Below, piece by piece: positions 7,340-47,614 of a stretch of 53,852 nt of DNA. The notes under the pieces were generated by a model that saw nothing but the letters and a program-made list of their open reading frames with translations, was not told the DNA's origin and searched no databases. Source of the DNA: a virus; the IMG/VR virus record IMGVR_UViG_3300001679_000055, positions 1 through 53,852 of that record; one strand, given 5' to 3'. Every line of letters starts with the position of its first letter. Position 1 is the first letter of the stretch. The position numbers and the translations under genes were made by a program.

Positions 7340-7347
7340 GTGTTCTC

Positions 7348-7560: not shown

Positions 7561-7574
7561 TAGTCTACCTCAAG

Positions 7575-8033: not shown

Positions 8034-8048
8034 ATTAAATTCCTTTAT

Positions 8049-8825: not shown

Positions 8826-8827
8826 GG

Positions 8828-9205: not shown

Positions 9206-9255
9206 TATTTAACTCCTCCTGGAGGTTGTTCTCAGCATTTGGCATGCAATAAATT

Positions 9256-9274: not shown

Positions 9275-9279
9275 TTGTC

Positions 9280-9951
9280 TCAGACAAACCCGCTATCTAT
9301 TAATTTAATATTAGTATCAAGATTGTCCGGGTTACGTAAACCTAACAGATTGATTTGCTTACAACTCTCATTGAATCTTAAGTAATAAGTGTTGTTCTGG
9401 TCTTTCATATCACCACTAATTGTAGCGTGTGATTTGTACGCTACATAGTTGATTAGTGCCTCTGTGTATATCTGAGGTAAACCTACATTACTGGTAATCT
9501 TTCTAGCTAATTCGGGTGCAGCTGCATAGGTAAGTATCATATCTTTCCTACCATCTTCGTCAGTGCCTTTGATAGTTACTTTAGTGGGGTCTTTAAACAA
9601 TACAGATACATTTACATCTATACCATTTACGAAATTAGTTCTTTCGTTATTGATAGTGACTTCATCCCCATCTTTAAAAGTACAACTGATAGCATGTAGG
9701 AAGTTATCATCTAGACTGAACTCCTCGCCATTAAGTGCAAAGTCTAATTCCATATCTACCTGTCGGATATTAAACTTCTTATGCAGCTCAATGTTAGCTA
9801 AGTTAATGAATGTACGAATCTTATCCCTGTTTTTTAGTTGTACAGCAGTAGGTTCATCAGTAGCACCTAATGTCATGTCTCCCACATCAGATGTAGCTAA
9901 CTGGCTAATCTCACCATTGACTAAGAATTCTATATATTCGTAAACTTTCAA
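9280..9951 (-). CDS. N4 gp67-like head-tail connector / virion protein
   Basis: A 223-residue acidic protein directly downstream of the large terminase gene. Size, order and the general pattern (helical N-terminus, internal beta strands around DLIYAAAPELARK-like sequence, C-terminal QIYTEALINYVAYKSH helix) resemble podovirus head-completion/connector proteins, and N4 gp67 holds this position. The start appears to be a TTG at 9951, with GGGGA six bases upstream; no ATG lies near. A stem-loop with a T-run (9967-9985) precedes it. Confidence 0.65.
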   Translation of the reverse strand: MKVYEYIEFLVNGEISQLATSDVGDMTLGATDEPTAVQLKNRDKIRTFINLANIELHKKFNIRQVDMELDFALNGEEFSLDDNFLHAISCTFKDGDEVTINNERTNFVNGIDVNVSVLFKDPTKVTIKGTDEDGRKDMILTYAAAPELARKITSNVGLPQIYTEALINYVAYKSHATISGDMKDQNNTYYLRFNESCKQINLLGLRNPDNLDTNIKLIDSGFV

Positions 9952-9966
9952 GAGGTTTCCCCAAAA

Positions 9967-9985
9967 ATAAATACTGTGTATTTAT
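9967..9985 (-). terminator. AT-rich stem-loop between terminase and gp67-like genes
   Basis: A perfect 8-base inverted repeat (ATAAATAC / GTATTTAT) with a 3-base loop. On the minus strand it is followed by TTTT. It lies between the large terminase and the gp67-like gene, so it could attenuate terminase readthrough. An AT-only stem is weak, so partial termination or mRNA end protection is more likely than a full stop. Confidence 0.45.
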
Positions 9986-9999
9986 CATACCACTTTTTA

Positions 10000-11586: not shown

Positions 11587-11789
11587 TGTGATTCCTCCCT
11601 GTCATTTCGTAGAAAGCTGTCCCCGGAGTTTGCATCTGATTCCGCCTCAACTATCAGATAGCTAACTTCCATTGATATTTGTTCAAATGTATTTCTTTCA
11701 GGCTGGTCACTAACCTCGTGCATACCACTTTGTGCCAACTTTTTAATGGCTCGTAATTTAGTTAGACAATCACTCATGCAATGTATCAT
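11577..11789 (-). CDS. Small hypothetical protein upstream of terminase
   Basis: A 70-residue protein, mostly helical, with an acidic C-terminus. The start ATG at 11789 overlaps the stop of the preceding micro-protein (ATGA), and its own end overlaps the terminase start, so the three are translationally coupled. Two Cys are near the N-terminus. No family was recognised. An accessory role in packaging is suggested only by position. Confidence 0.65.
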   Translation of the reverse strand: MIHCMSDCLTKLRAIKKLAQSGMHEVSDQPERNTFEQISMEVSYLIVEAESDANSGDSFLRNDREESHWD

Positions 11790-11875
11790 TTATCATCCCC
11801 ATATTTATCTATAAGTCTAAGAATAGCCCCGCCCAATATCAACGAAAGTAGCAAGATAAGATGGTCTATTTCCAT
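11786..11875 (-). CDS. 29-residue membrane micro-protein
   Basis: A very short frame: ATG at 11875, 29 residues, stop overlapping the ATG of the 70-residue gene. It reads MEIDHLILLLSLILGGAILR and then a charged tail (LIDKYGDDK). Residues 6-20 form a single hydrophobic helix. The tight ATGA overlap downstream and the overlap with another membrane micro-protein upstream support real translation. A lysis or inhibitor role is possible, but nothing in the sequence decides this. Confidence 0.55.
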   Translation of the reverse strand: MEIDHLILLLSLILGGAILRLIDKYGDDK

Positions 11876-11970
11876 TTAGTAGCTTTAATGTGATCGGAAA
11901 ATATACTATAAAGCACACCTACCCCAAACAATATTCCAACTAGTATTAGCGCTATTATTATTTCTCCCAC
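11866..11970 (-). CDS. 34-residue membrane micro-protein (GTG start)
   Basis: The frame starts at a GTG at 11970 inside the end of the gp69-like gene and codes for 34 residues. Residues about 4-24 are a continuous hydrophobic helix (EIIIALILVGILFGVGVL), followed by a polar tail (IFSDHIKATKWK). It overlaps the 29-residue membrane frame by ten bases in another phase. Without a Shine-Dalgarno of its own, translation would depend on coupling to the gp69-like gene. Confidence 0.45.
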   Translation of the reverse strand: MGEIIIALILVGILFGVGVLYSIFSDHIKATKWK

Positions 11971-12695
11971 CGCACTTCTTCATATTCTGTTTCTATAGCT
12001 GTATTTTTTCTAGCAATAATATCTGAGTGTGCCATAGCCTCAGCAGTAACAGCTCCACTCTGAATTAGTTTCAGTTGTTGTTGAGCTAATGCTCTAGTAG
12101 TGTCTCTCAGCTCTTCGATAGAGTCTGATGAATAATTGACAGCTACTTCAATTTTAGCTGTTTCTGGGGCTTTTAATTGCATAATCAAGCACTCAGCTGC
12201 CTTCTGCCTAACCGTCTCTGATTTGGCACTCCTCATGAGCTCAGCCTGTGTATTGATGGCTTCCTGATGTACATCCATATTAAGAATATGCACAGGCACT
12301 AATGTACGCTCTAGGATCTTATGAACTAAATCAGTTTTATTGAATGCTGTGGCAAAGCTTGATATGTTCTTAGATGGTGTGCCTTTATCTATTTGTCTCT
12401 GGTATCTTTCAGGAAAGACCTTAGCGTACGCCATAAGATTAGTAGAACCCAATAGTTTGAAACTAACGAACTTCACTGCATCTACGTAACTCGTCATTTT
12501 GTACTTGCCAGTCTGGATAACATCAGCAAAACCTAATAGATTATCTTTATAGATTTGTCTGAAATCTTCATCAGGCTCAGAGTTGATCATTGTGATCATG
12601 TCTTCAGTAACATTATGTCTCCACTTTTTAGGCACGCTTGCCTGAAGTTGATCCATAGTTAAAATACTGGCGTTGTTTTTAGTCTCTAATTTCAT
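11958..12695 (-). CDS. N4 gp69-like protein, possible small terminase
   Basis: A 245-residue, mostly helical protein upstream of the terminase large subunit, at the place of N4 gp69. The N-terminal part is basic/polar with WRHNVTEDMI. The C-terminal part has a long helix rich in Gln/Ala/Leu (ELRDTTRALAQQQLKLIQ), as is common in oligomeric small terminases. No clear helix-turn-helix is visible by eye. The small-terminase role is inference from position. Start ATG at 12695, overlapping the end of the upstream winged-helix gene by 17 bases. Confidence 0.6.
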   Translation of the reverse strand: MKLETKNNASILTMDQLQASVPKKWRHNVTEDMITMINSEPDEDFRQIYKDNLLGFADVIQTGKYKMTSYVDAVKFVSFKLLGSTNLMAYAKVFPERYQRQIDKGTPSKNISSFATAFNKTDLVHKILERTLVPVHILNMDVHQEAINTQAELMRSAKSETVRQKAAECLIMQLKAPETAKIEVAVNYSSDSIEELRDTTRALAQQQLKLIQSGAVTAEAMAHSDIIARKNTAIETEYEEVRWEK

Positions 12696-13041
12696 GTTTC
12701 TCCAATTTACGTTTATCCCACTCCTCTCTAGCTTTTAATTTACGAACAGGTAGACCATACCACCAGTTATATGGATTAACATGGAAGTGTATACCTTCAC
12801 GTTGAATATGCTCATTTTTAACTAACCAAGAAATGGATCTGCTGATGTTTGCTTTGTCTACATTGAGATGCTCACCAATTTCTTTATTCGTAGTAGCCAC
12901 ATGTCCATCTAAATCACGCATATCAAATAAACTTTTCCACACCCTACCATGAGGCTTGGGCATAGCTAGTAATAAATCTATAGGGTCTTGGCCTTCTTCA
13001 AATAAAATATCCATACATGCTTGTTCAAATTCTCTATTCAT
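12679..13041 (-). CDS. Winged-helix DNA-binding protein, RepL/MarR-like
   Basis: A 120-residue protein with a clear winged helix. The region VATTNKEIGEHLNVDKANIS is the helix-turn-helix (about residues 47-70), followed by RSISWLVKNEHIQREG as recognition helix and wing, then HFHVNPYNWWYGLP. The latter resembles the NP-x-x-x-x-G ending of RepL-type replication proteins. It is the first gene of the late minus-strand operon and lies at the presumed genome terminus, so it could be a late regulator, a replication/terminus-binding protein or a DNA-recognition partner of the terminase. The ATG at 13041 lies one base from the predicted transcription start. Confidence 0.7.
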   Translation of the reverse strand: MNREFEQACMDILFEEGQDPIDLLLAMPKPHGRVWKSLFDMRDLDGHVATTNKEIGEHLNVDKANISRSISWLVKNEHIQREGIHFHVNPYNWWYGLPVRKLKAREEWDKRKLEKHEIRD

Positions 13042-13076
13042 GACCGCAAGTATAGCATCTTGTATGATCTACACAA
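13042..13076 (-). promoter_or_regulatory. Late promoter candidate giving a leaderless mRNA
   Basis: On the minus strand, TTGTGT (13076-13071) as -35, 16-base spacer, TGC then TATACT (13054-13049) as extended -10. The predicted start is 13042, and the ATG of the winged-helix gene begins at 13041. No Shine-Dalgarno is present between. This matches a sigma-70 promoter for the late terminase-side operon. Confidence 0.6.
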
Positions 13077-13120
13077 CAGTAATTGTAGGATTATGCCATA
13101 TTAAGCTAAAATAAGCAAAA

Positions 13121-13154
13121 AAGTATACAACAACGTCTGCAGGAAGTATACAAC
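13121..13154. repeat. Direct repeat AAGTATACAAC x2
   Basis: AAGTATACAAC occurs at 13121-13131 and again at 13144-13154, a 23-base period. Each copy contains the palindrome GTATAC and, on the minus strand, a TATACT -10-like hexamer. They could be operator sites or tandem late promoter elements upstream of the 13041 gene. Confidence 0.55.
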
Positions 13155-13305
13155 TTTTTCCCAGTAAGAATGCGGGTTGTAGCGATTCCCTATTAAGGGC
13201 CTTAGAGAGCGCAGCGAACAGGAGCTTGCTCCCCTAGGTTTTTAGCTACAGAAGATACGTAGTATTGAGTTAATAGATACTCACATACTTACCCCCATCC
13301 CTGGC

Positions 13306-13321
13306 GAGAGCTGAAGCTCTC
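13306..13321 (+). promoter_or_regulatory. Small-loop hairpin in the early control region
   Basis: A perfect 6-base inverted repeat (GAGAGC / GCTCTC) with loop TGAA. Its shape equals that of the elements at 13490 and 13983 (6-base stem, 4-base loop), which sit before early genes. No gene starts directly downstream; a role as an additional early promoter or as terminus structure is open. Confidence 0.35.
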
Positions 13322-13489
13322 TTGGGCGCGGGACGTATGCTCGTATTAGAAAGAGGTTAGAAATGGACTATTTGGTATTAGTAGAAATTTCAATAATAGT
13401 TTTAGGTTAGTAACTTACTGTGGGGAGTGTGGAATTTGGAAGGTACCCCCCCTATGCGTTATGGGTAACTATCTTTTTTGCTAAGACAC

Positions 13490-13505
13490 AAGCGAAGTCT
13501 CGCTT
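13490..13505 (+). promoter_or_regulatory. Candidate vRNAP hairpin promoter P-E1
   Basis: A perfect 6-base inverted repeat (AAGCGA / TCGCTT) with loop AGTC, followed by AACAGGCA, 40 bases before the 13546 gene. The same loop and inner stem (GCGAAGTCTCGC) and the following CAGGCA recur at 13983 before the next early gene. N4 virion polymerase recognises promoters as small template-strand hairpins a few bases before the start site. Sequence recurrence plus position support this; loop size differs from N4's 3 bases. Confidence 0.6.
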
Positions 13506-13545
13506 AACAGGCAATTTTGTCATTTAATTTAAGGATATATATATT

Positions 13546-13848
13546 ATGAGCGACGCTATCAATACAACAGATACAACTAAAACTAAAATGCAATCAGTAA
13601 AGTTTCCTTTCCGTATGTACAACAAGAACACTATGGAATGGGACGCTATTGCTTACGGTAATATCCCTGAGTCTGGTACATCTCTAGATCATTTCAAGAT
13701 GTTCGAAGGGTGGTTACAGCAGGCTATCGATGGTGGTGCTATCTTAATCGATGAGGCTAAACTGAAGGAGCTGGGTATTCCGAATATCAAACTTACAGCA
13801 GAGTCACTATTTCAAAAGACTGAACGCCTATCCAACGCATACATCTAA
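13546..13848 (+). CDS. Early protein, hypothetical
   Basis: A 100-residue acidic soluble protein, the first plus-strand gene. It has no recognised motif; MFEGWLQQAIDGGAILIDEAKLKELG looks helical. A ribosome site (AAGGA) lies about 10 bases upstream of the ATG. It has its own hairpin promoter candidate before it and a strong terminator after it, so it is probably a separately expressed, abundant immediate-early protein. Confidence 0.8.
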   Translation: MSDAINTTDTTKTKMQSVKFPFRMYNKNTMEWDAIAYGNIPESGTSLDHFKMFEGWLQQAIDGGAILIDEAKLKELGIPNIKLTAESLFQKTERLSNAYI

Positions 13849-13864
13849 CCTAAACATTAACCTT

Positions 13865-13909
13865 GCTATACCTTCATCCCATATCGGGTGTTGGTGTAGC
13901 TCTTTTTTT
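13865..13909 (+). terminator. Rho-independent terminator after first early gene
   Basis: The stem GCTATACC (13865-13872) pairs with GGTGTAGC (13893-13900), with one G-U pair. Inside it CCC pairs with GGG, and a run of seven T follows (13903-13909). It would stop the first early transcript 17 bases after the 13848 stop codon. Confidence 0.8.
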
Positions 13910-13982
13910 GACACAGACACAGGTCAACGGCCACCAGACAGTAACCAACCAAAGCCAGCAAATATTCAGTTCACCGTGCCCT

Positions 13983-13998
13983 ACGCGAAGTCTCGCGT
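13983..13998 (+). promoter_or_regulatory. Candidate vRNAP hairpin promoter P-E2
   Basis: A perfect 6-base inverted repeat (ACGCGA / TCGCGT) with loop AGTC, followed by TTCAGGCA, 49 bases before the 14047 gene. The loop, inner stem and downstream CAGGCA are shared with the element at 13490, while outer stem bases covary (AA/TT versus AC/GT), which indicates that the pairing itself is conserved. Confidence 0.65.
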
Positions 13999-14046
13999 TT
14001 CAGGCATATTCATCTTGTATATGTTAATTAAAATAAGGTAAACATC

Positions 14047-14304
14047 ATGAAAGTAATCAGCAATATTAGTAACACTATAGGGGCATTAGCTCAAGCAACA
14101 CAGTCAGCCGCAATGCTTATTGAAAAAGTAGTAGGTGATAATGGGTTAGGTAGATTCGTAGACCAAATATCAGAAATGTCAGCAGAAGGTTTAGACGAAA
14201 ATTTAGAAGATATGCGACTAGACAGACAAGAACGTCAAATTGAAAGAACTCATAGAATCGCAGAACTTAAAGAAAAATTCAAGGTAGATACAAATGTCGA
14301 ATAA
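14047..14304 (+). CDS. Early protein with charged helical C-terminus
   Basis: An 85-residue protein. The N-terminal 35 residues are Ala/Ser/Ile rich and amphipathic; residues 45-80 are a highly charged helix (LEDMRLDRQERQIERTHRIA). No family was recognised. ATG at 14047 with AAGGTAA upstream. It overlaps the next membrane micro-gene, which begins inside its last four codons. Confidence 0.75.
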   Translation: MKVISNISNTIGALAQATQSAAMLIEKVVGDNGLGRFVDQISEMSAEGLDENLEDMRLDRQERQIERTHRIAELKEKFKVDTNVE

Positions 14305-14392
14305 CACTAAAGCATTCTTAGAAGTACTAATCGATACCATTACCTTTGCCATAATAGCTATAGGTTTCATCTTGTTAATTACTGCCATCTGA
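14294..14392 (+). CDS. 32-residue membrane micro-protein
   Basis: The frame starts at ATG 14294, inside the end of the preceding gene, and codes for 32 residues. Residues about 14-32 (ITFAIIAIGFILLITAI) form a single membrane helix; the N-terminus is polar. Overlapping placement suggests translational coupling. An early membrane role (for example in exclusion) is possible but not shown by sequence. Confidence 0.55.
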   Translation: MSNNTKAFLEVLIDTITFAIIAIGFILLITAI

Positions 14393-14479
14393 TCAACTCT
14401 TACATGTACCTAGTTGGGTATGTGTTGGACTTTTTACCTTGTGATAGTAGACAGAAAACTATACAAACGATAACACCCT

Positions 14480-14490
14480 CATTTATTTAA
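14480..14490 (+). promoter_or_regulatory. Possible middle (RNAPII) promoter core
   Basis: CATTTATTTAA lies about 70 bases before the 14560 gene. A near-identical core, CATTTATTTT, is at 15001-15010 before the RNA polymerase gene, and CATTTAATTT is at 13521-13530. N4 RNAPII promoters are AT-rich, but the match here rests only on recurrence upstream of genes. Confidence 0.3.
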
Positions 14491-14559
14491 ACCGAGTATT
14501 CACAGAAGCTACCCTGTGACTATTCTTTCATTCCAGGTAGCATTAAAACGGAGAATATT

Positions 14560-14964
14560 ATGGGCTTACTAGCTATTAATAACACAGAAACAACTAAAGC
14601 TTACAACAACGATAAAGTAATCTACATCAAGATTACTGGTCAAGAGAAGTCAGCACAATTTAAACCAAGTAAGGCATTTGAGAACATTGTATCTAACGCA
14701 GACGTGTTGAAGATTATTACTAAGGGTGACATTCGTCCTACTAAAGCTAATGACAAGGGTTATGTTAACTTTGTACTAGGTAATGGTACTAATCAATTTG
14801 GTTTCATTAATTACTTAGAAAACTCTCTAGGTAATGACTCAACTGATGATGATAAGACAGAAGCTTTATTCGCTGTAGAGGCTAAGCTATCACAAGTAAC
14901 TCTTGATGATATCAGCAGACCACTAACTGCAGATGAAGCACGTAACGCACTAGACATGCTGTAA
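14560..14964 (+). CDS. Conserved-looking hypothetical protein before RNA polymerase
   Basis: A 134-residue soluble protein with a mixed alpha/beta pattern (KVIYIKITGQEKSAQFKPSK, then GYVNFVLGNGTNQFGFINYL). It is separated from the RNA polymerase gene by a hairpin with T-rich tail, so it may be made in excess over the polymerase. N4 RNAPII needs a small partner that binds single-stranded DNA (gp2); this protein is one candidate by position, with no motif to prove it. Confidence 0.75.
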   Translation: MGLLAINNTETTKAYNNDKVIYIKITGQEKSAQFKPSKAFENIVSNADVLKIITKGDIRPTKANDKGYVNFVLGNGTNQFGFINYLENSLGNDSTDDDKTEALFAVEAKLSQVTLDDISRPLTADEARNALDML

Positions 14965-14980
14965 TACAACTATACATGGG

Positions 14981-15009
14981 TACATCAGAAATGATGTATT
15001 CATTTATTT
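14981..15009 (+). terminator. Hairpin with T-rich tail before RNA polymerase gene
   Basis: A perfect 7-base stem TACATCA / TGATGTA with a GAAA tetraloop (14981-14998), then a T-rich tail. It lies between the 14964 stop and the polymerase gene, suggesting (partial) termination that lowers polymerase expression. Confidence 0.6.
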
Positions 15010-15051
15010 TTTAATATATCTAAAACTATAAACAATTCTTGGGAATACATT

Positions 15052-16833
15052 ATGAACTTTCAATTACACAACGAGTTAGAATACTCAAAGAGACAACGTA
15101 ACAACTTAATACTGTTAGACATATTAGATGAAGTGCCTACTGAGGTTACTGATCATCTTACCAATGCTATTGATACCTATAGATCTGGAGAATACTATGC
15201 CTCTAAGCAAACTAGAGTACGTAACCTACCTAATACTATGGAGATCGTAAGTAAGATCTTAGCTATTGTTTTATCTAATGATAGTAAGCAACCCATTCAA
15301 GGCCCAGCTACTGAATTAGGTTTGTCTATGGGGTATAGGAACCCAGTAGATGCTGTTAAGACTGGTGCTGAAATATTAGCTATTGTACATGGTAGTCTAT
15401 TTGACATCTCTATGCACTCTGAAGGAACTGACATACTTCCTAAATTAAAGTTAGATGACAATACTATGGATAAGTTAAAAGTATTACAATTCCTGCCACC
15501 TATGCTGCAAGAACCTGAAGACTGGGTCTCTAACGTCCAAGGAGGGTGGTTGTGGGAACGTAAATCAATTATCTTAGGCAAAGGTAATCATCATGAAGAG
15601 TATCAGTCGTATGACGCTGTTAATCTAATGCAGATGGTACCTTGGACTATCGATATACCTACGTACATTAATCATGATAATCCTAATGAGAATATGGATA
15701 GAGATCAATACAACCGTGTCATTACAGACAACCTAGGTAAACCATTCTACTTTGTATGGCGATTTGATAAACGTGGGAGGAGTTATTCTTCAGGTTATGA
15801 CTTAAATATTCAATCTAATGAGTATGGTAAAGCTATGTTGTCGCTAACTAACAAACGCCCTGTTAACAAGGTTGATAACCTTAAGATTGCTGTTGCAAAT
15901 CATGCTGGACATGATAAGTTAACTTGGCAAGGACGTATTGACTGGTTTAATAAACAGTTAAGCTTTGATATGGGGCAGTTTAATGAACCTATTCTTGGTG
16001 CTAAGGCATTAAGAGCTTATCATGAAGTTAAACAAGGTCATAAGACTGGTTACGTTATGTCTATTGATGCTACTGCCTCTGGTTTACAGATAATGAGTGC
16101 ATTATCAGGCTGTAAAGATACTGCTAGAGTTTGTAACATGATCGATACAGGTGATAGAGAAGATGTTTACCAAATGATAGCTGATAGAATGAACAAACGC
16201 TTGAATAGTAGAGACTCAGTCAGTAGGAACATGGTTAAGAAGCCTACCATGACAACATTTTATAACTCTAAAGCTAATCCTAAGCAGGTGTTTAATGAGG
16301 AACAGTTAGAGGCATTTTATGTTACGTTAGATGGGTTAATGCCAGGTGCTATGCATATTATGGAGGATATCAATACATGTTGGCAATATGATAGTGATTT
16401 TCATCAGTGGACATTGCCTGATACACACGTAGCACGTGTACCAGTTACTGAAATGGTTGATATTAGGGTAGAAATCGATGAGTTAGACCATAGAACGTTT
16501 ACCTATCGGTATAACAAGCAACAACCTAGTGAGAACTATAGAAGTTTAGTTGCTAATATCATTCACAGTGTAGATGGGTATGTTGCTAGGGAGATGGTTA
16601 GACGAAATCATTATGAAGGTACTGAATTAGTACATATTCATGACTGTTTTGTATTTACACCAGATGCTATGCAAGATGTAGCTAGACATTACAGAGAAAT
16701 ACTAGCTGAAATAGCTGATAGTAATTTACTAGAAGACATTTTGTCTGAAGTCACGGGGACTAAGTTAACCATAAATAAGATGTCTAGTGATCTTTCTAAA
16801 GATATCCTAAACAGTCAATACATGCTATCTTAA
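15052..16833 (+). CDS. T7-like DNA-directed RNA polymerase (RNAPII), single chain
   Basis: A 593-residue single-subunit polymerase that should transcribe middle genes. Motifs in order: D/TxxGR as FDKRGRSY (Asp239 to Arg243); motif A as SIDATASGLQ with catalytic Asp339; motif B with Arg392, Lys396 and Tyr404 (R-x3-K-x7-Y); motif C as HIHDCF with His530 and catalytic Asp531. The Tyr of motif B is followed by Asn, where T7 has Gly. In N4 this enzyme is split into gp15 and gp16 (about 670 residues in sum); here all motifs are in one frame with no stop. Start ATG at 15052; a GGGAA lies 7 bases upstream. A T-rich terminator follows. Confidence 0.93.
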   Translation: MNFQLHNELEYSKRQRNNLILLDILDEVPTEVTDHLTNAIDTYRSGEYYASKQTRVRNLPNTMEIVSKILAIVLSNDSKQPIQGPATELGLSMGYRNPVDAVKTGAEILAIVHGSLFDISMHSEGTDILPKLKLDDNTMDKLKVLQFLPPMLQEPEDWVSNVQGGWLWERKSIILGKGNHHEEYQSYDAVNLMQMVPWTIDIPTYINHDNPNENMDRDQYNRVITDNLGKPFYFVWRFDKRGRSYSSGYDLNIQSNEYGKAMLSLTNKRPVNKVDNLKIAVANHAGHDKLTWQGRIDWFNKQLSFDMGQFNEPILGAKALRAYHEVKQGHKTGYVMSIDATASGLQIMSALSGCKDTARVCNMIDTGDREDVYQMIADRMNKRLNSRDSVSRNMVKKPTMTTFYNSKANPKQVFNEEQLEAFYVTLDGLMPGAMHIMEDINTCWQYDSDFHQWTLPDTHVARVPVTEMVDIRVEIDELDHRTFTYRYNKQQPSENYRSLVANIIHSVDGYVAREMVRRNHYEGTELVHIHDCFVFTPDAMQDVARHYREILAEIADSNLLEDILSEVTGTKLTINKMSSDLSKDILNSQYMLS

Positions 16834-16876
16834 AATATATAATCAAGTTGAACCACAAGTAAAGTTATAATAGACG

Positions 16877-16908
16877 TGCCCATTACGGGTATTTCTATTA
16901 TTTTTTTT
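16877..16908 (+). terminator. Terminator after RNA polymerase gene
   Basis: A short stem TGCCC / GGGTA (16877-16881 with 16887-16891) with a 5-base loop, followed by TTTCTATTA and a run of eight T (16901-16908). It ends the RNA polymerase transcript. The sequence CCCATTACGGG resembles the inner part of the terminator at 13880 (CCCATATCGGG). Confidence 0.6.
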
Positions 16909-16931
16909 ACTGTTTTTTTTACTATCTTAAA

Positions 16932-36202: not shown

Positions 36203-39200
36203 TTACCAACCCTCACCCATACTGATTTCCCATGCTGGTGGAATAATAACTTCTTTTAAGATTTTAGCTATTCCACCATCAGTAGGTAATAACTTACCTC
36301 CAAGTATTGAGGAATCTGTTATATCAGCAAAGTCTGCATCTAGAGCCACTTCAGTAGCTAAGTAAGCCATTAAGTTCAACGGCTCTTTTCTAGCTAAATT
36401 CGTAACCATTGATTGAATTCTTAAGAAGTATCTAACAAACATGATAATTCCTAGGTCATTCATATATTGAATATTACGATTCATAGGCTGATCATAGTTT
36501 ACGAATAATCTAGTGATTAGACTCCAAGCTTCTGTGTGTGATGCACCTTGCTGTTCAGTTTTATGCTTATACATAGCGTATCTAAATAGAAAATCAGATA
36601 TCTGTGTTGCATGCATGGCTGATTTACCCAACTTACTATCAGGTGACATGTACGCCATACTAATTACATTTGATATGGACTTAGGTACTGTTACGCCTGT
36701 TTTGTCTTTTATCCACTTTCCTGTCTTAGAACGGGTTTGCATGTCAAATCCATGTATATCCTCTGTAATACTTGAAAATAGGCCTGAACTCATAAACATG
36801 TGCATATCACTGGTATTAACGTCACTTGCTAGTTGCTTCATTTTTTTGATGATAGCTGGTTTAGTGGCCAACTCAGGTCTAGCTGCTACTCTGTGACGGA
36901 GTTCAGCTAGTTCCTCCATATTATCACGGTAAGCTTCTAAATCTTGCCAACCTCTGTTTATATGCTTAGTTAAGTATGTAGGCGGTATACCATGAACTAT
37001 ACTTGCAATAACATTACTCGTAATGTTCTCACGAATTACCATAGGAATTTTAACAACGATGGCTACAACAGCTGTTTTAACTAAGCCCTTGATAGCTTTC
37101 TCTACTATTCCCGTGATTCTGCGTACAGCATGTGTATCTCTAATCAGAGGTAAATTCATCAAGGTTCTATGCTTGTAGCCAAATATTGTGTCCAACAAGC
37201 CTTCTTGAACCCAAAACTCTTTTCCACCCTCTTTGTTATACGTAATATTTTTTTCAATATCATAACGCATTTGTTTGGGTAATGTATCAAAGTATTCCTC
37301 TTTATGATCACCATCAAAGATGTTTACCCATTTCTTAGCATTCTTAGTCGTACGATTTTTATCTGCATCAGCCATCATAAGCTGGACACTTCTAGCATTC
37401 ACTTTAAGTGTAGCTGCTTTGTCTGCTTTACGCATAAACATTGAAGATAGTATCTCAATACTATTCATATCTTGGTTTAAATGCTGTTTAACTAGAGCAT
37501 GTGACATGCTAACTCTATAATCTACAATTTCATTATTGGAGTTAGTGATTGGTATAAGTTGTTTCTTACCAGTGCGTTGACCTGTCTTAAGCTGCTTTGT
37601 TTCTTTTTTGTTTTCTTGTATGAAGAAGTCACTAAGCACTTTTTTGATCATACCTTCATACTTTGGATTTCTAGCAATAATAGATTTAAGTGAAGTACCC
37701 TTAGCTTTGCGCGCAGTAACTGAGTTAATACCTTTGGTTCGTGGAGTTTCTACAATATTAGTTCCCACAAATAAAGCCAACTCTACTTGATCAATGCCTT
37801 TGATACCTTTTAAAGTCTCAACCATCTTGTAACCTTTACGTTTAAGTATGGCTGCATTGTCAATCATCTTAGGGTTACCATTAGAATCAGTACGTGGGAA
37901 ACCATTGCCATCTAGCTCTGGTACGTATAAAGGTTCAACAATGATGTCTGTGTCTGTATCCGTAATCACTGTGATATATCCCTTATCCATCAAAGCTCTA
38001 TCTTTACCAAACAACTCTATAACTGCTTCTTGTTTAAATGATCTGTGTTGTGATAACATTTCGGTAAAGCCATTAAACTCTTTATCAACATCCATTTCAC
38101 GTTTAGCAAGATTTACTAATGATTCTTGCATTGATTTACTATTGTTAATAGTCTTCTGTATTGCTTGTAGCGATGCTAATATGTCAATAGCATGTTCATC
38201 TTTAGTATCACCTTTAGGATCTAAAGTAATACTGTAAGCATTCAAGTACTGATGTGCTGTTTCAGTTTCACCGAAAACCATGTAGTCAGATAACCCATCA
38301 ATTTCTAGTCGGTAGAAAGAATTATTTGCAGTTCCAAGAAGCTTCTCGTATATATTAATAGCTGAAGCTAGCTTTTTAGGGTCTTCGATTAATTTAACAA
38401 TATGCTCCATGCTGTACTTACCTTCATCAAGCAATGAAACAGCATCTGTTTTTAATAATAACAAAGTCATAGCCTCTAATTCTAGCTCTGTAGGCTCTGT
38501 GTCTGATATAAAGCTATTACGTAAGATCTTAGCTATAGACTCTTTAGTTTGGGCTCTGTTAGCATCAACAGCCTGCCTAGACTCTAATACCATATCCAAA
38601 AATTCTTGTGGTGTTATCCCTGCAACTTCACGGAGTACAGATCGCATAGTCTTAGCTATCTCACCTTTAAATACATAATGTGCATTAGTTATGTATCTAC
38701 GCATCTCTTTAGGTGTTAGGTGTAGTGCTGCTAGTGGTACGTTAACTAGCACACCTCTAATAATTTTAGAGAACAGGCTGTCTGAAGGTAGAATTTTATC
38801 TTTTAGCTCATCTCTACGTCTCTGTGCTACTTCATGTAACTTAGGTATGCCTTTATTAATCACTAAATTTTGGAAATCAATAATCTTTTGGTTAGCTGCA
38901 CTATGTTTAGCTGATACACCCTTTCTAAACAGGTATCTAGATAATGCATTACGGCGATCAGTATTAATAGCCACAATCTCTTCAGCTAAATTAGTTATCT
39001 GGTCATGAACAGTAGCGCTGTGCTTTCTATTCTCGAACATATTTTCTTGGAAAGAGGTCAGTATTCTATTTAGTAAATTAAAGAATCGTTGTAGTAAACC
39101 TGTGGACTCATCGCTAGTATGTCTTTTAGCTTCAGTACTCTTAAGCTTACGTATCATGCCTGGATTAGTTAAAGCATAGGCTAGAAATTCGTAAGGTGCG

Positions 39201-42200
39201 TGCTTCGTTTTACCTTTATCACCAAATAAATAATCATAAAGCTCTTTCGCTGCTTTTTCCTCCGCCTTTATATCAGCTGAGGCTTCCGGGTGCATAAAGT
39301 CTTCCCAAGTAACTTCTTTACTCATTTCACGATGTAATCTATCTAGATCACCTCTAATCTTCGTATCAGTATTAATTACCCGATATGAGATAGCGTGTAT
39401 AAGCTCATGGATATAAACCTCTTGAGGTGTCTGTTGTGTAAATGACTTTGGCTTAAATCTTCCAATGTTAACTTCAACATGTCCTGTTACAGGATTATAC
39501 TCACCACCTGATTTATCAGTCTTACGTGTAATCACCTCAACAGATGTGCTATCAAGAATTGAAGCACTAGGAATAATAAACTTTTGTAAGATACGTTCTA
39601 GGTGCTCACGTTGTTCTCTGGACGCTTCAGGGGACGAATAATTGTCCTTAAACACATCATTAAGATTGTCAAAGATATCTTGTGTAAGGTGGCTTATCGA
39701 GCTCCTACTAAAAGTCTGTTCTATCTCAGCTGAAGCGCTTTCGTTGCTTGAACCTAAACTACCATTGTTTGTCTTTACTTTCCCTAGGTCTGCCCAATTC
39801 ATTTGATTAACAACTAGTTCGTTTTTCGCAAACAAATCTTTAACTTCTTGTAGGTCTTTCAATGCACCTTGATGTGCATAATCTAATGCTTTAATTTGTT
39901 TGTTGATATTGAGTGAATACCTAATTTTAAGATTACCTGTGTTAACAGCCTGGTGGGACTTTTCACGGTACGCATCAGTAGCCCTCTTTATCCTATTTTC
40001 TTTAAGCGCTAGAGCTGCAACTGCTTTAAGCTCCTCCAACACAACACCTAAAACATTGTTCTCTAAATTGGTTTTAATGAAGTCATCATTATAAGTTTTA
40101 CTGCCCTTATCTAAATCAGATATTGAGAACTGTCCAGCATCATACAATGACAGGAATTCAAAGCGCATAGATACAGCAGCTATATGATGCGCATCTAAAT
40201 TCTGAATAACGTTAGCTTGTACTTTAGAACCGCCGCTTGCTGGGTCAGTATTAACAGAAGGGGCTGACATTGATAGACGGCTAGTTTTAGTTTGGTCAAG
40301 AGTCATAACGCCGTCAGCACTTGTAGTGTGCTCATACACATAATGCCCCAGCTTAACTGGTATACGTGATTCTGCATCCGGAGATTTCTTCTGCGAAATC
40401 ATAGCAATAAAAGAATCTGCTTCTGTATCAGATTGATGTACTGGGCCTTTATACCTTGGGTAGTAAGTGCCTAGTAAGCTACGTGCTATTTCACGTTTTT
40501 GTTCAGGGCTGATTTTATTAGTATCTGAAGCGTCACGAATAGCCTTAACTTTTTCCTCATAGGCATCGAGATAAAAGAAGTATATCCACTCAAAAGCATT
40601 ACCTAATTCTGTACGTCTACCCATCATGCTATTCTTATCTTCAGGATCACCTAGTAAAGATTTAAGACCAGCATCCATCATAGGACCGTAAACGAATTCA
40701 ATACCCTCTTGTACTTCACGTAATATTTTTTCGTTAGTACGGGTGTGCTCAGTACTCTTACCTGAAGGTTCAGTAACGTTTAACGTTGCATCTAGGTTTC
40801 CTTTTTCTAAAATTTCAACAAAACCCAGTTTGGCAGTTCCACCACGAAGTTCGCTTATAGCATTATCTAAACGTTGGGCATCTTTAGAGGCCTCTTCGGT
40901 ATTTCCATCATTAAAGTTTCTTTGTATCGCAGCCATCTTGTCCAGTAAACCATCCATTGCTGATGCTGATACTTTACGTAGAACAGACGCTAGGGCTGCA
41001 CCATAGTTAGTAGTCATTAGTGGGTCTTTTGCCAGATCTCTGGCAAAGTCAGTCAATGTACCATCTTTGAGAATCTCTCCATGAACTTCCTCTAATGCAT
41101 GTAATACATTTACTTTAAGTTCTGCATTTTTGGTCATCCTATCGTAGATTTTGCCTTTATATAGGCCTGCGTCTTTATTTTTCTTTTGTGCTTTTAGCAT
41201 CGCTTCCAGTTGGAAGTTTGCAATAGCACTAACATCCCTAGCATCATTCATAGATTTAGCTAGTTCTTGGTACACGTCTAAGTTTTCTGGGTCTGTAATC
41301 CATTCACCAAATTCTGTACCTAATTTAGCATCGTAAACACCTACACGCTGTAGACTGGCCATTAAATTATGTCCACCGAACTGTAATAATGCAATAGCAT
41401 AACCATTAGTAATGCCATCTATCTCAGCAGTCATATCAGTAGTGAATTGGGTAGACGCTCCAGGACGGTAATCAGCTAAGCCAGCTAAGCCTTCAATCAA
41501 ATGTACTTTATTAGCGAATACAGGCTTACCTTTATCATCCTTTAGGTTATGCACTGACATAACAGCTTCACGTATCTCAACATCTGTAGCGCTATTATTC
41601 TTAAATACCTCTACCGCAGCTTCAACAACAGGATTCTCGTATACTTCATTAAAGAATCTAATTGAGGTTACTGCGCTCTGTTTATCAATAGGTGCTCCAA
41701 ATGCAGCTGCTACTGCAACTTTAAATGCATTACGCAATCTTGGTGTATCTACAACAGTAGGGTTAGATAGTGCTGCTACTAAGTGTCTATGAATCTTACT
41801 ATTCATCGGATTAATACCTGCACTCTTAATCATCATACGGCCTTGCTTCTGTACGCCGTACTTGTAGTAGAATATGCCATCAGCATACTCATCCATAGCT
41901 TCAATTTCAGCTCTTAATGCTGAATTAGCTGCTTCAAAAGAGTCCCTTCGATCCCAGTGTTCACTATCTTTATTCACTACACCGGCTATATCTTCCTTCT
42001 GTTTTATAGATAGTGCTCGCCATAGACGTAATGGGCCTTTCATTCCTGTCTGTGGGGTATCTTGTAGTTTGCGTATCAATTTTTGATCTGCAGTTGATAC
42101 TGCTGATAAGCTTCCGGCTACCTTGGTTTGTACTTCTTTTAATGGCTCAGAATACACACCCGACTTACTAACCACCATTCCTGTAATTGCTTCTAAATGC

Positions 42201-45200
42201 TCTACCTCACCTCGTAAGAATTTTAAAGCTTCAGCATGTTCTTTAGGGTTGATACCTTTTGGTTTAGCATTGGATTGAATAGTATTTACATTTTTATCAC
42301 CAAGGAATACATTATTACCCTCTGTTCGTTTTTTGATGACAGGTTTACCATGTCTTAATATAACAAACGGTTGAGAGCTAGCTTGTTTAGATATACGTTT
42401 AGGTAGAATGCTTGAAGCATCTACTTGAGATAACAAAGTTATTGCTAAGATGCCTAAGGCATTAGATAAAGTATCTTGTAATTCTAGTGGCGATAGAGGG
42501 TAGTCTTTAAGTTCCTCACTACGTTTATTTACAGCTTTGACATTTAGAGCATTAAGCACGTTTGCACCTATGTCTGTGTGCATCATATAAATAGGTATAC
42601 CTATCATTTTAATGGTGGATCTTTCTTGGTTAGTCAATTTGTCTTTTTGATTTAATCCTAGTACGCGCTTAACCATTACGTCATCTAAATTTTTAATAGC
42701 AGAAGCATCTGTACTAATGAAAGCCAGTGCCTGTGTAGCTAAAGCAAACAATACCTCATCAGGTAAAGTCTCAACACCTCTAGGGTCAACAATATGTAAT
42801 ATGTTTAATATATTACTGGAGCTAACACCCTCTTCTTCATTAATTTTGTGCCTGATAGGTTTCTTGTTGCCTTTAGAATCTAAATTAGCTGTCTTATAGA
42901 TTTCCTTAAACTGTTTGAAAGTTTCAGTTAATGTTTCAATATACTCTGGGCTAGCAACAATAGGCTCCATATTATTAGATAATCTGGTTTCATTGACTTT
43001 AGCCACTGCATTTTCTGCTTGCGTTTTAATAGTGTCAGCTGTTACTTCACCTGTAGGAGTAAATACTCGTACCACTTCCCGTTTCTTATCTTTAACTTCA
43101 AGTAAGTTAGCAGCATTGCCTCCCTTGGTTTTAAATACAGGGACAAATTCTTGTATGTTATTAGACAAGATAGTGTCACCAGTTAAACCAACTACAAAAG
43201 TTTCAGAGGTTACTTCTGATTCTAACTCTTGTTGTACAACAGGGACAGGCTTAGCTTTAGTTACTGACTTAGTCTTAACAGCTTTGCGCATACGGGTAAC
43301 TTCACGCATAGCTACAGCATTAGCATGGTTTTCCCTTTTATGTCCTTGAGGGCGTTTTAAATTAGCTTCAGTGAAATGGGCCCTTTCGTGAGCTACAACA
43401 AACGTTTCCCATTCTTCATACGTCTTAAACGCATCTTCAGCATACGGGGTAACACCTTCCATCTTAGGATTAGTCCAAGCCTTTCTATCAAATGTAGCTT
43501 TAAGCTCAGCTTTATCTATAAGTATTTGGTTATTCTTTCTATCTGCTTGCGCACCAATACGTCGTTTACCATCAACAGATGAAGTAATGTTATCTACGTA
43601 CTTAATAGTCACAGCTGCTGCTAAATCTTTACTAATACCTTTGGCTGTAGAAGTTTCAGGATCAGTACCGAACATAATAGTATCTTCTTCCACACTTTTA
43701 GAAGTCTCATCCTTTACAGACTCCGTCTGCCCGGCTTCGTCTTCAACTTTACCTTTATTAGAGGTATTTGCTACTATCTTATCAACGTCATTTACATTAT
43801 CAGAGTTACTAGATTCTGTATTAGCTTTACCTATGTCACTTAAACTACCTATATTATCTTTTTGTTCCTTTAACAGGTTTGTAATACTGGCTTCATCAGC
43901 AGATGTGTAGTTATTAGGATCTAATTTAACTTGTTCTTTAGCTGCGACAACCTGTGTAATCACTTCTTGAGTGGCCATACCATAGGCTGCTTCATTCTGT
44001 ACGGACTCTACAAAAGGTTTACTGTAATCTGAAAGAAACTTTTTGTTTGTATCTGTTTGAGATATGGCGTAATGACTTTTAGATTTATTAAAGTCCTGAG
44101 CATCTGTCAATACAACATCTTTAGGAAGTGCTTCACCATCTCTCATAATAAGAGGTTCAGCAGTTAAATCAGTCTTGTTAACGTAAACAATAGCAACGCC
44201 ATCTTCTTTAGAAGTTTCTAGAGCTTTAGTTAGAACTTCAGCCTTAGTATTCATGTGTTTAACAAAATTATCTAAGCGATTAAGTACTCGCTTAGTTGCT
44301 GTACCTTCGTCTGCCTGATTAGCATACATGTCGAAACTTTGATTAATACCTGATTCAGCATCTATAATCTCATGACTAACTATTTCAGTAGTCTTATCAC
44401 GGTTACTATCTAAATCTAAACGCTTCTTTTGGGACTTTAATAAAGCCTGTTGTTCAGTAGTAAGCTCTTCAGATTTATTTGCAAGTTCATCAAGGGCTGT
44501 AACATCAATTTCATTGATATTTAGTGATTGAAGTACATAGTCATTAGGATTTAGTTTATCGGCAGAACCATCTTTTAAACGTGTCACCTGTTCAGCAGCT
44601 ATATCTTCTAACACATATTGTGATTCATCTAGGATATCTACGTAGTCTTGGATATCAGCGTCTGTTTTGCCTTCTCTTTTCATTCCAGCAACAACTGTCT
44701 TAAGGTTCTTGTGGTGCTTTAACAAGCTAATGGCAGTGTCAGCACCTATAGCCTTATTGTTATCCATTTCACTTAATATAGTTAACACAGAAGTGTATGG
44801 GTTGTAATCCGTGGATTTAACATCCATTCCAGTTACAGCTGAAAAGTTTAGCCTGTTAGTCTCTTTAGACTTCTGGACAGTGTCAGTTTTTGCTTTAAGA
44901 CCCACTTCGATGTTTTCGCCGATAGTGTCTAGAGCTTGCTGTAAATCTTCTTTGATTGTAGCAATATGTTCGTCACGTTGAGTAGTGAATAAACCCTCTT
45001 TATGTGGCTCTTTATCAATACGTTCTTGAAAGTCTTCAGTAGTGTACTTAATATTAATATTTGCATTATCCTGCTCAAAGGATCTAACACGTTCTTTGGC
45101 TGCATTTACTGTGTCTACTGATTTTGCATTCGCTGATGTAAAGTTGCCAGCAGTAGCAAGAGCTCTATCAAGCTCAATCTGCTGCTCATACATTTTGATA

Positions 45201-47614
45201 CCTCTCTCGAGGCCTTTAATTAACCTAAAGTCAATGTCTGTCTGACTATTACCTTGCTTTAATGTCTCCAATAAAGCATAACTTAGATTAGCTACATGGG
45301 TAGTGTCTAGGATTTTTTTATCTAAAGACTTCTCTGCAATAGCTAATACGTTTATTTCGTCTAAATACGCGTCTATATCCATCCACTCAGTTCTAGCATC
45401 ACCATACTTAGGTTGAAATGCTTTTATCTTATCGCCACGTTTGGAAATTAATTTATCGACTAACTTATCTCTAGACTTTTCAACGTTAACTTTTTGCTTG
45501 TCACTTAGTGTCTCATCTTTTAATACTTCAGCACGTTTAGCTATCTTGTCTACCGTAGTCTTAAGACTAGGTGAGATAGTGTTTTTAGCTGCTTTAATTG
45601 CAGATACCGGAGCTGAGATTGAAAGACCACCCATAGCTTCATTAACGAAACCTTCACTAGCTTCAAAACCAGTAGGTGTTACTACACTACCGTCTTCCTG
45701 GATACCATGCTTAGCAATAGTCTCAGCAGTAGTAGACGTTAGACCTGAAATACCTTCAATAGTCGCAGGTACAAGTACTGCTGCAACAGGTTTAACTACC
45801 ATAGATACTAGAGGATTCTTAATACCTATTTCACTTACCCATGTAGTCAGGTTTGGAAGCCTGCCTGTAATGGCTTTAACACCCAATTTCTCTGCAGCGA
45901 TACTAACTACTGCCATAGAGTTTAATAATGCTAAATCAGATCCCTCTGGGACCTCACCATGTATGTCTGTGTACTCACGCTTGAAGTTCTCTTGCGCAGA
46001 TGCAATAGCAGCAGCTACACCTACATAAGGGATCATTAATTCACCCATGAATGCTGCAGATTCAACTAAGCTATGTACAGCAGATACTTTACGATTCTGT
46101 AAAGAATATACTAAGTAATCCCAACCACTATCATCGTAAATCTTCTCAGCTACTTTCTTTTCAAATCCTGACTGTCTACGGTTAACTTTACTGGCAGCTT
46201 CAGCTTCTTTAGCTAATGACTTATTGTCTCTAGCTACTCTGTTAATTACTTTAGAGTCTAAGCTTGATAAGTAAGTAAACTTAGGTTGTTGACTGAACAG
46301 TATTTCATCTTCTGATAGTTGATCACCTAATGCCAATTTAGTTTCAATGGCTCTATGGTTAGCTTGGTCTTCTTTAGAGATCACATCGTTTTCAGTAATG
46401 ACCTTGGAGTCACCGGTGTGGCCTAGCGCTTTTAAATCTCTATTCTGTGGGGATTGCCACCAGTTAGTGTGTGTACCTACTAATTGGTTCCATTGATCTA
46501 CACCTTCTAACTTTGTTAGTGGTCCATCATCTAGAGCTCTTTTGAATCCTTGATTTACAGATACTCCGCCTGAAGCTAGTTCGTTACCTACATTTGTCCA
46601 TGAGTTAACATCTGCTTCTGCATCTGGGTTAGCTTCAATTTCTTGCTTGTACCAACGAGCTTCTTCAAGTGTTAATTCTGTTTTGTAGAAACCTACTTTG
46701 TCTTTTCGTGCTGGGTAGTAAACAGAGAAACTGTTCTTACCAGTTACTATATTAACCTGCCCGTCTCTACCAGCTGCCTTAACATCTTTGGGAATCTCTG
46801 CAGTTTGTTCTTCAGGCATTGGGGTGCCCATAGCTCGTGCGTAACTAGCTCTCTTGTCTACATCGAGCATACGCTTTGATGCAACAGTGGGTATATCGTA
46901 ACCCTTCTTAAACTCTTCGTACTTATTGCCATTCGTAGCTTCATACGATTCACGAATAGCTGTTTGTTTATCGTTGTTGTCGAACCATCTGGTATTAAAC
47001 TCAGGTGTATTCATAGCAGCGTATAAATCTACACCTGTTTCTGGGTTAGATAATGTACTCTTTACACGCTTAGAACCGGCACGTTTCATATCACTTGGAT
47101 CGTATGAAACATCAACTTCAGGTAGGTACCATTGAGGCTCCATACCTTCATAGTCTGAGCGTTCCACAACACCCATTTCAGCGTCATAAACACCTTGACC
47201 TTCTGTAGCTAAAGCATTGAACTTAACGTCTGCTTTCTTACCCATCTCATAGACCATAGCACTGTTAACTTGGCTAACATCTATGTCCCATAATCTAGCG
47301 TAGTGTTCTTTTTGGTAGGGTCTTAATGTAGATTCGTTGCGGTAAGCACTGTGCTCTGCAGTATCGATATCATTAGCACGAGCACCGAAAGAAACACCTT
47401 CATCTGTAGTTAGATATCCAGAGTCAGCATCAGTACCTTTGCCTGCCATGTCATCAAACGTAGCATTAGTAGTATTCCATTCATCTAAGAATGGGACATT
47501 GCCTTGGCTTATTCGTTCTTGTTTCTCTTTTGACTTTTTGGCTATATCACTACGTTTCTTACGTATAACTTCATCGAAGCCTTTAAATTGGTCTTCGCCA
47601 GCATATATAGCCAT
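36203..47614 (-). CDS. Giant virion RNA polymerase (N4 gp50 type)
   Basis: A 3803-residue protein (N4: about 3500) packaged in the head and injected to transcribe early genes. The central T7-like domain shows QGRMMI (Arg1926, D/TxxGR-like), motif A AEIDGITNGYA with Asp2066, motif B RDLAKDPLMTTNYG (Arg2192, Lys2196, Tyr2204), and a probable motif C, NLDAHH with Asp2474. The spacing from A to C (408) is close to that of N4 (392). N-terminal and C-terminal regions serve entry. It also carries two zincin motifs: HERAH at 1409-1413 and HELIH at 2736-2740, the latter followed by YEFLAYALTNP (Glu2809). Hydrophobic segments near residues 530-640 and 3400-3450 may meet membrane. Start ATG at 47614 with AAGGA upstream. 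Confidence 0.95.
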   Translation of the reverse strand: MAIYAGEDQFKGFDEVIRKKRSDIAKKSKEKQERISQGNVPFLDEWNTTNATFDDMAGKGTDADSGYLTTDEGVSFGARANDIDTAEHSAYRNESTLRPYQKEHYARLWDIDVSQVNSAMVYEMGKKADVKFNALATEGQGVYDAEMGVVERSDYEGMEPQWYLPEVDVSYDPSDMKRAGSKRVKSTLSNPETGVDLYAAMNTPEFNTRWFDNNDKQTAIRESYEATNGNKYEEFKKGYDIPTVASKRMLDVDKRASYARAMGTPMPEEQTAEIPKDVKAAGRDGQVNIVTGKNSFSVYYPARKDKVGFYKTELTLEEARWYKQEIEANPDAEADVNSWTNVGNELASGGVSVNQGFKRALDDGPLTKLEGVDQWNQLVGTHTNWWQSPQNRDLKALGHTGDSKVITENDVISKEDQANHRAIETKLALGDQLSEDEILFSQQPKFTYLSSLDSKVINRVARDNKSLAKEAEAASKVNRRQSGFEKKVAEKIYDDSGWDYLVYSLQNRKVSAVHSLVESAAFMGELMIPYVGVAAAIASAQENFKREYTDIHGEVPEGSDLALLNSMAVVSIAAEKLGVKAITGRLPNLTTWVSEIGIKNPLVSMVVKPVAAVLVPATIEGISGLTSTTAETIAKHGIQEDGSVVTPTGFEASEGFVNEAMGGLSISAPVSAIKAAKNTISPSLKTTVDKIAKRAEVLKDETLSDKQKVNVEKSRDKLVDKLISKRGDKIKAFQPKYGDARTEWMDIDAYLDEINVLAIAEKSLDKKILDTTHVANLSYALLETLKQGNSQTDIDFRLIKGLERGIKMYEQQIELDRALATAGNFTSANAKSVDTVNAAKERVRSFEQDNANINIKYTTEDFQERIDKEPHKEGLFTTQRDEHIATIKEDLQQALDTIGENIEVGLKAKTDTVQKSKETNRLNFSAVTGMDVKSTDYNPYTSVLTILSEMDNNKAIGADTAISLLKHHKNLKTVVAGMKREGKTDADIQDYVDILDESQYVLEDIAAEQVTRLKDGSADKLNPNDYVLQSLNINEIDVTALDELANKSEELTTEQQALLKSQKKRLDLDSNRDKTTEIVSHEIIDAESGINQSFDMYANQADEGTATKRVLNRLDNFVKHMNTKAEVLTKALETSKEDGVAIVYVNKTDLTAEPLIMRDGEALPKDVVLTDAQDFNKSKSHYAISQTDTNKKFLSDYSKPFVESVQNEAAYGMATQEVITQVVAAKEQVKLDPNNYTSADEASITNLLKEQKDNIGSLSDIGKANTESSNSDNVNDVDKIVANTSNKGKVEDEAGQTESVKDETSKSVEEDTIMFGTDPETSTAKGISKDLAAAVTIKYVDNITSSVDGKRRIGAQADRKNNQILIDKAELKATFDRKAWTNPKMEGVTPYAEDAFKTYEEWETFVVAHERAHFTEANLKRPQGHKRENHANAVAMREVTRMRKAVKTKSVTKAKPVPVVQQELESEVTSETFVVGLTGDTILSNNIQEFVPVFKTKGGNAANLLEVKDKKREVVRVFTPTGEVTADTIKTQAENAVAKVNETRLSNNMEPIVASPEYIETLTETFKQFKEIYKTANLDSKGNKKPIRHKINEEEGVSSSNILNILHIVDPRGVETLPDEVLFALATQALAFISTDASAIKNLDDVMVKRVLGLNQKDKLTNQERSTIKMIGIPIYMMHTDIGANVLNALNVKAVNKRSEELKDYPLSPLELQDTLSNALGILAITLLSQVDASSILPKRISKQASSQPFVILRHGKPVIKKRTEGNNVFLGDKNVNTIQSNAKPKGINPKEHAEALKFLRGEVEHLEAITGMVVSKSGVYSEPLKEVQTKVAGSLSAVSTADQKLIRKLQDTPQTGMKGPLRLWRALSIKQKEDIAGVVNKDSEHWDRRDSFEAANSALRAEIEAMDEYADGIFYYKYGVQKQGRMMIKSAGINPMNSKIHRHLVAALSNPTVVDTPRLRNAFKVAVAAAFGAPIDKQSAVTSIRFFNEVYENPVVEAAVEVFKNNSATDVEIREAVMSVHNLKDDKGKPVFANKVHLIEGLAGLADYRPGASTQFTTDMTAEIDGITNGYAIALLQFGGHNLMASLQRVGVYDAKLGTEFGEWITDPENLDVYQELAKSMNDARDVSAIANFQLEAMLKAQKKNKDAGLYKGKIYDRMTKNAELKVNVLHALEEVHGEILKDGTLTDFARDLAKDPLMTTNYGAALASVLRKVSASAMDGLLDKMAAIQRNFNDGNTEEASKDAQRLDNAISELRGGTAKLGFVEILEKGNLDATLNVTEPSGKSTEHTRTNEKILREVQEGIEFVYGPMMDAGLKSLLGDPEDKNSMMGRRTELGNAFEWIYFFYLDAYEEKVKAIRDASDTNKISPEQKREIARSLLGTYYPRYKGPVHQSDTEADSFIAMISQKKSPDAESRIPVKLGHYVYEHTTSADGVMTLDQTKTSRLSMSAPSVNTDPASGGSKVQANVIQNLDAHHIAAVSMRFEFLSLYDAGQFSISDLDKGSKTYNDDFIKTNLENNVLGVVLEELKAVAALALKENRIKRATDAYREKSHQAVNTGNLKIRYSLNINKQIKALDYAHQGALKDLQEVKDLFAKNELVVNQMNWADLGKVKTNNGSLGSSNESASAEIEQTFSRSSISHLTQDIFDNLNDVFKDNYSSPEASREQREHLERILQKFIIPSASILDSTSVEVITRKTDKSGGEYNPVTGHVEVNIGRFKPKSFTQQTPQEVYIHELIHAISYRVINTDTKIRGDLDRLHREMSKEVTWEDFMHPEASADIKAEEKAAKELYDYLFGDKGKTKHAPYEFLAYALTNPGMIRKLKSTEAKRHTSDESTGLLQRFFNLLNRILTSFQENMFENRKHSATVHDQITNLAEEIVAINTDRRNALSRYLFRKGVSAKHSAANQKIIDFQNLVINKGIPKLHEVAQRRRDELKDKILPSDSLFSKIIRGVLVNVPLAALHLTPKEMRRYITNAHYVFKGEIAKTMRSVLREVAGITPQEFLDMVLESRQAVDANRAQTKESIAKILRNSFISDTEPTELELEAMTLLLLKTDAVSLLDEGKYSMEHIVKLIEDPKKLASAINIYEKLLGTANNSFYRLEIDGLSDYMVFGETETAHQYLNAYSITLDPKGDTKDEHAIDILASLQAIQKTINNSKSMQESLVNLAKREMDVDKEFNGFTEMLSQHRSFKQEAVIELFGKDRALMDKGYITVITDTDTDIIVEPLYVPELDGNGFPRTDSNGNPKMIDNAAILKRKGYKMVETLKGIKGIDQVELALFVGTNIVETPRTKGINSVTARKAKGTSLKSIIARNPKYEGMIKKVLSDFFIQENKKETKQLKTGQRTGKKQLIPITNSNNEIVDYRVSMSHALVKQHLNQDMNSIEILSSMFMRKADKAATLKVNARSVQLMMADADKNRTTKNAKKWVNIFDGDHKEEYFDTLPKQMRYDIEKNITYNKEGGKEFWVQEGLLDTIFGYKHRTLMNLPLIRDTHAVRRITGIVEKAIKGLVKTAVVAIVVKIPMVIRENITSNVIASIVHGIPPTYLTKHINRGWQDLEAYRDNMEELAELRHRVAARPELATKPAIIKKMKQLASDVNTSDMHMFMSSGLFSSITEDIHGFDMQTRSKTGKWIKDKTGVTVPKSISNVISMAYMSPDSKLGKSAMHATQISDFLFRYAMYKHKTEQQGASHTEAWSLITRLFVNYDQPMNRNIQYMNDLGIIMFVRYFLRIQSMVTNLARKEPLNLMAYLATEVALDADFADITDSSILGGKLLPTDGGIAKILKEVIIPPAWEISMGEGW

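Follow-up and report, generated by a model that had tools for sequence, protein, structure and literature searches.

The vRNAP gene and its HExxH motifs

The window, a virus record of 53,852 bases, carries a gene for an N4-type virion RNA polymerase (vRNAP; Table 1) whose reading frame is uninterrupted over all of its residues. Nearby genes gave matches to families of the terminase large subunit, of DNA polymerase and DNA primase, and of N4-like RNA polymerase. By analogy with its N4 counterpart, this vRNAP is presumably packaged and ejected. Public records name such proteins inconsistently, as 'ribonuclease E' (JSF3, 12VC501), 'coil containing protein' (Vibrio 1.224.A), or 'metallopeptidase' (Pantoea phage G19). 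The catalytic Asp pair of the polymerase is present. A sequence-only reading of this DNA had placed it at Asp2066 and Asp2474; in our alignment with N4, Asp2066 (DGITNG) does correspond to the catalytic Asp, but Asp2474 gives way to Asp2492 (LSLYDAGQ), which aligns opposite IFDGMNIG of N4.

The same reading had pointed to two HExxH motifs, HERAH and HELIH, and these are indeed the only two in the protein. Composition-preserving shuffles of the vRNAP contain on average 0.124 HExxH per protein, against the two observed; this rarity, together with the conservation of the motifs in related domains, led us to reject a chance origin of both. The further suggestion that both motifs lie in zincin domains such as those of injected polyvalent proteins is supported by the homologous domains described below.

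Table 1. Features of the vRNAP gene in the window.
Feature	Coordinates	Strand	Evidence
N4-type vRNAP gene, 3803 aa	36203..47614	minus	PHROG 2206 'virion RNA polymerase', E=2.6e-254; N4 vRNAP structures by sequence, E=1.8e-25
T7-like polymerase region, residues about 1850-2560 (boundaries approximate)	39935..42067	minus	alignment with N4 and other vRNAPs
Conserved C-terminal part	36245..37606	minus	anchor for family searches; alignment A6 and tree
Putative N-terminal zincin module, residues 1322-1437	43304..43651	minus	homology to giant proteins; AF2 core pLDDT above 90; structural matches
HERAH, residues 1409-1413	43376..43390	minus	HExxH invariant in six-member alignment A3; predicted helix, model residues 90-103
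Glu1428, proposed third metal ligand	43331..43333	minus	invariant in A3, followed by invariant Asn and Ala; next long predicted helix
Putative C-terminal zincin, Z2 copy, residues 2652-2877	38984..39661	minus	Z2 profile i-E 9.7e-76; independent Z1 profile i-E 4e-16; AF2 pLDDT 84
HELIH, residues 2736-2740	39395..39409	minus	HExxH at homologous Z2 site in 14/55 distinct vRNAPs
Glu2809, proposed third metal ligand	39188..39190	minus	Glu in 14/14 Z2-active, 1/41 Z2-decayed copies; predicted helix 177-187 of model

The C-terminal zincin

HELIH and Glu2809, the latter located in YEFLAYALTN, are kept in relatives at 15-25% identity; His2736, His2740, and Glu2809 would be the zinc ligands of this domain and Glu2737 its general base. 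Its AF2 model presents the elements in the order H33-58, E62-68, E74-78, E83-89, H101-118, and, further on, H177-187, that is, an N-terminal helix, three strands, the HExxH helix, and the Glu helix, which matches the layout described for the MPTases of polyvalent proteins; one of the structure-prediction alignments was confined to the fetched viral-contig loci and left out rows from named phage records. In both domain models the HExxH and the proposed third-ligand Glu lie on predicted helices, as a zincin would require, but the Foldseek matches in the PDB are weak (best E 0.07 for the HERAH domain and 0.2 for Z2). For Z2 the top matches were PprI, anthrax LF, YfcM, and M61, all at E>0.1, and N4 chains were absent among the matches listed. 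Though weak, the top PDB matches of both models are mostly zincins or HExxH metalloproteins. When the two domains were scanned against Pfam and PHROG, no zincin family came up significantly; SprT-like reached E 0.015 only.

Tandem zincin copies in N4-type vRNAPs

The fetched N4-type vRNAPs possess one or two zincin copies downstream of the polymerase domain, which we call Z1 and Z2. We fetched 80 loci via the C-terminal region, and 55 deduplicated vRNAPs cover both sites; the 26.6-kb contig L003 (IMGVR_UViG_3300001515_000210) was not counted as an independent relative because its vRNAP sequence is identical to that of the window. With hhalign, active Z2 copies match Z1 at 99% (E 3e-18) and decayed Z2 copies at 91% (E 1e-6), while column-shuffled decoys stay at 0.1-0.3%. 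These profile comparisons show that Z1 and Z2 are homologous; we read them as two ancestral tandem copies placed after the polymerase, which have been retained alternatively: the HExxH is intact in Z1 only in 41 of the 55 vRNAPs, in Z2 only in 11 (the window, which is without any Z1 copy, included), and in both in three (VibPG11, L024, and L032), while no vRNAP has neither. For L032 we assigned the Z1 state manually, its Z1 motif having been misplaced in the multiple alignment. If the states of Z1 and Z2 were independent, about 8 of the 55 would be expected to have neither. In a tree built on the region from vRNAP residue 3001 to the end, the pattern of retention is clustered and implies about five state changes; it therefore goes back to few independent events, with one copy surviving intact in each. 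The vRNAPs L064 and L065 have an additional HExxH (HELHH) 355 residues before the C-terminal anchor, seen in none of the other vRNAPs fetched.

Two observations bear on the role of the conserved residues. First, the third-ligand Glu at Z2 is present in all 14 active copies and in one of the 41 decayed ones (Fisher p about 3e-12, a value that is only indicative because related sequences are not independent), which agrees with the earlier proposal of Glu2809 as the likely third ligand. Second, across the 44 Z1 copies the only invariant columns are those of the HExxH, whose invariance follows from the definition of the set, and that of the third-ligand Glu, where it does not. The decayed copies have remained in place in N4-type vRNAPs. 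It has been reported with the N4 structure that the C2 region (2376-3500) has no structural homologues, and a profile built from active Z2 copies alone finds N4 residues 2442-2599 at i-E 4e-17; on this profile evidence, C2 begins with a decayed zincin, Z2.

The persistence of decayed Z2 copies as parts of C2, along with the reported need for the zincin-containing region in N4 encapsidation, would suit a purely structural role of these domains in translocation, packaging, or regulation, their HExxH motifs being relics. We consider this improbable, since at least one site is intact in 55 of 55 vRNAPs and the third ligand is lost together with the HExxH, a pattern not expected of purely structural domains. 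The retention of at least one intact copy in every lineage examined argues that selection maintains a peptidase there, and that one full site is always kept while the ligands of spare copies are lost jointly argues that catalysis matters. The absence of vRNAPs with neither copy intact thus speaks for the need of a working peptidase and indicates which residues to mutate. A natural pair for comparison exists: L032, taken as Vibrio phage phi1 and holding both copies, and L085, taken as VCO139, have vRNAPs that are 96% identical apart from a 218-aa stretch, Z1, that has been cleanly deleted in L085, so that the need for the peptidase is directly testable.

A probably exchangeable N-terminal module

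The HERAH domain is 47-50% identical to isolated domains in the giant proteins L018 and L019 and 30-38% identical to domains in the giant proteins L015, L016, and L020. This similarity is limited to an isolated block of about 100-120 aa, the rest of the giant proteins having no detected similarity to the window vRNAP, and within the block HERAH and Glu1428 are conserved in all five. His1409, His1413, and Glu1428 would be the ligands of this module; Glu1428 as third ligand of the first domain had been overlooked in the sequence-only reading. As for the giant proteins themselves, those of L015, L016, and L020 have about 3750-3960 aa, two HExxH sites, and DxDxD motifs; L020 has two DxDxD motifs, one with a conserved surround, and L015 has a C-terminal SF1 helicase. 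That they are polymerases could not be shown, despite these motifs, and it is possible that they are ejected multidomain proteins of other phages. The L019 protein (6827-16909; 3361 aa) combines DUF7831 with a HERAH-type zincin, and convergent genes come after its gene, an arrangement also seen in N4-type phages.

Could HERAH be a chance match outside any zincin? The domain is absent from all other vRNAPs fetched, had no significant Pfam or PHROG match, and resembles PDB folds only weakly (best selecase and abylysin, E 0.07-0.8; selecase prob 0.87); neither tblastn against named phages nor a scan of bacterial and archaeal genomes turned up a match. We regard a chance match as very improbable, given the identity of 47-50% and the invariance of HExxH and Glu1428 in otherwise unrelated giant proteins, the matches of the model among viral structures, where large phage proteins are best (E 3e-6) and weaker ones are named SprT-like, IrrE-like, and PolyVal metallopeptidase, and the fact that the nearest relative has a motif of zincin type at this position.

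This relative, L022, is about 45-80% identical to the window vRNAP over most of the protein and has in the same slot, between conserved flanks, a longer segment with a zincin-type HELGH...EIAANNYA. Lack of conservation in close relatives had been named as one ground for giving up the earlier proposal. The Z2 HExxH site is shared (14/55 vRNAPs), but HERAH, taken literally, is not conserved in L022; since L022 has another zincin in its place, this reads as an exchange and not as a chance motif. Moreover, the HERAH domain is closer to domains of unrelated proteins than to its L022 counterpart, which argues for module exchange; this is the simplest reading of the N-terminal slot, resting on two lineages. 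We looked for additional members of the window/L022 clade and for further carriers of the HELGH domain and found none. Because the HERAH profile matched neither Z2 nor the L022 HELGH domain significantly, we claim no common origin within vRNAPs for the three.

Proposed function

We propose, with a probability of roughly 0.6, that the ejected vRNAP of the window carries two working zinc metallopeptidases that act after ejection and are likelier to cut other proteins than the vRNAP itself. Both domains are predicted to bind zinc and to be catalytic, and the substrates would be host or co-ejected proteins. The N-terminal module would be an exchangeable extra peptidase of this lineage.

The sequence-only reading had suggested that the zincins might process the giant protein itself or cut host targets early. 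Self-processing after ejection, which might release the polymerase from an autoinhibitory C-terminal or a membrane-anchored N-terminal domain, has some appeal, since the zincin sits between the polymerase and the remaining C-terminal domain, which in N4 inhibits transcription, and since P1 DdrB is processed, with its own MPTase proposed as the processing enzyme. As originally stated, self-processing is not supported: N4 vRNAP has been reported to be packaged unprocessed, and purified full-length gp50 shows no degradation. Self-processing triggered in the cell is possible. In addition, either tandem place suffices and the N-terminal module has been exchanged, findings that agree less well with a fixed cut site inside the protein; this positional tolerance and the exchange appear to fit the cutting of other proteins better. 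Overall, we consider self-processing unlikely, though it deserves more weight than the two alternatives above.

Turning back to the cutting of other proteins, a zincin is kept in every relative examined and a second one seems to have been acquired from unrelated phages; proteolysis by the predicted zincins is therefore probably part of the start of infection in these phages. More tentatively, and at somewhat less than even odds, the Schitoviridae vRNAP may be regarded as a delivery chassis with an obligatory metallopeptidase, whose tandem copies are alternatively kept, and swappable N-terminal proteases that it shares with unrelated giant ejected proteins and that are aimed at host proteins. 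The N4 vRNAP is the model for ejected giant enzymes.

Comparison with known systems

The sequence-only reading knew of no peptidase activity for N4 gp50. We likewise found no tested function for the N4 vRNAP zincin in the open-licence literature searched, but the domain itself was known before: in 2017 a zincin was predicted to follow the polymerase domain of N4 (Iyer et al., PMC5512222), the prediction was repeated in a 2021 review (PMC8472413), and its HExxH motif was noted in a 2025 preprint on the N4 structure (PMC12633501). In the open-licence literature we found no report of the tandem Z1/Z2 pair with alternative retention, of a decayed zincin in C2, or of the HERAH domain as a lineage-specific, exchanged N-terminal module.

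Coliphage N4 gp50 (PDB 9pnr, 11fw, 11gp), which is ejected into the host, belongs to the same family as the window vRNAP and shares with it the T7-like polymerase followed by a zincin and the conserved C-terminal region. However, in N4 it is the first copy whose site is intact (HELVH at 2228, third-ligand Glu within NEFMAWG) and the second that is decayed (2442-2599), whereas the window has its intact site in the second copy, no first copy, and an extra N-terminal zincin. The zincin-like MPTases of polyvalent proteins (PMC5512222) likewise have an HExxH helix with the Glu on the next helix and a three-stranded sheet, and occur in giant ejected multidomain proteins; we found no mention of a tandem Z1/Z2 pair with alternative decay in that work, and with the tools used the HERAH module could not be assigned to any of its 12 MPTase clades. 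Selecase and abylysin, the minigluzincins that best match the fold of the HERAH model in the PDB, are stand-alone enzymes with no detected sequence relation to it. A homologous zincin is found in the phiKMV/LUZ19-type internal virion protein gp37 (PDB 9sfn_G, residues 420-557, E 5e-16 with the Z1 profile), which, unlike the window vRNAP, has 1337 aa and no N4-type polymerase and is annotated only with an endolysin domain. The same zincin family also occurs in a DarB-like protein of Serratia phage Parlo, and both cases fit a general role of these zincins in ejected proteins.
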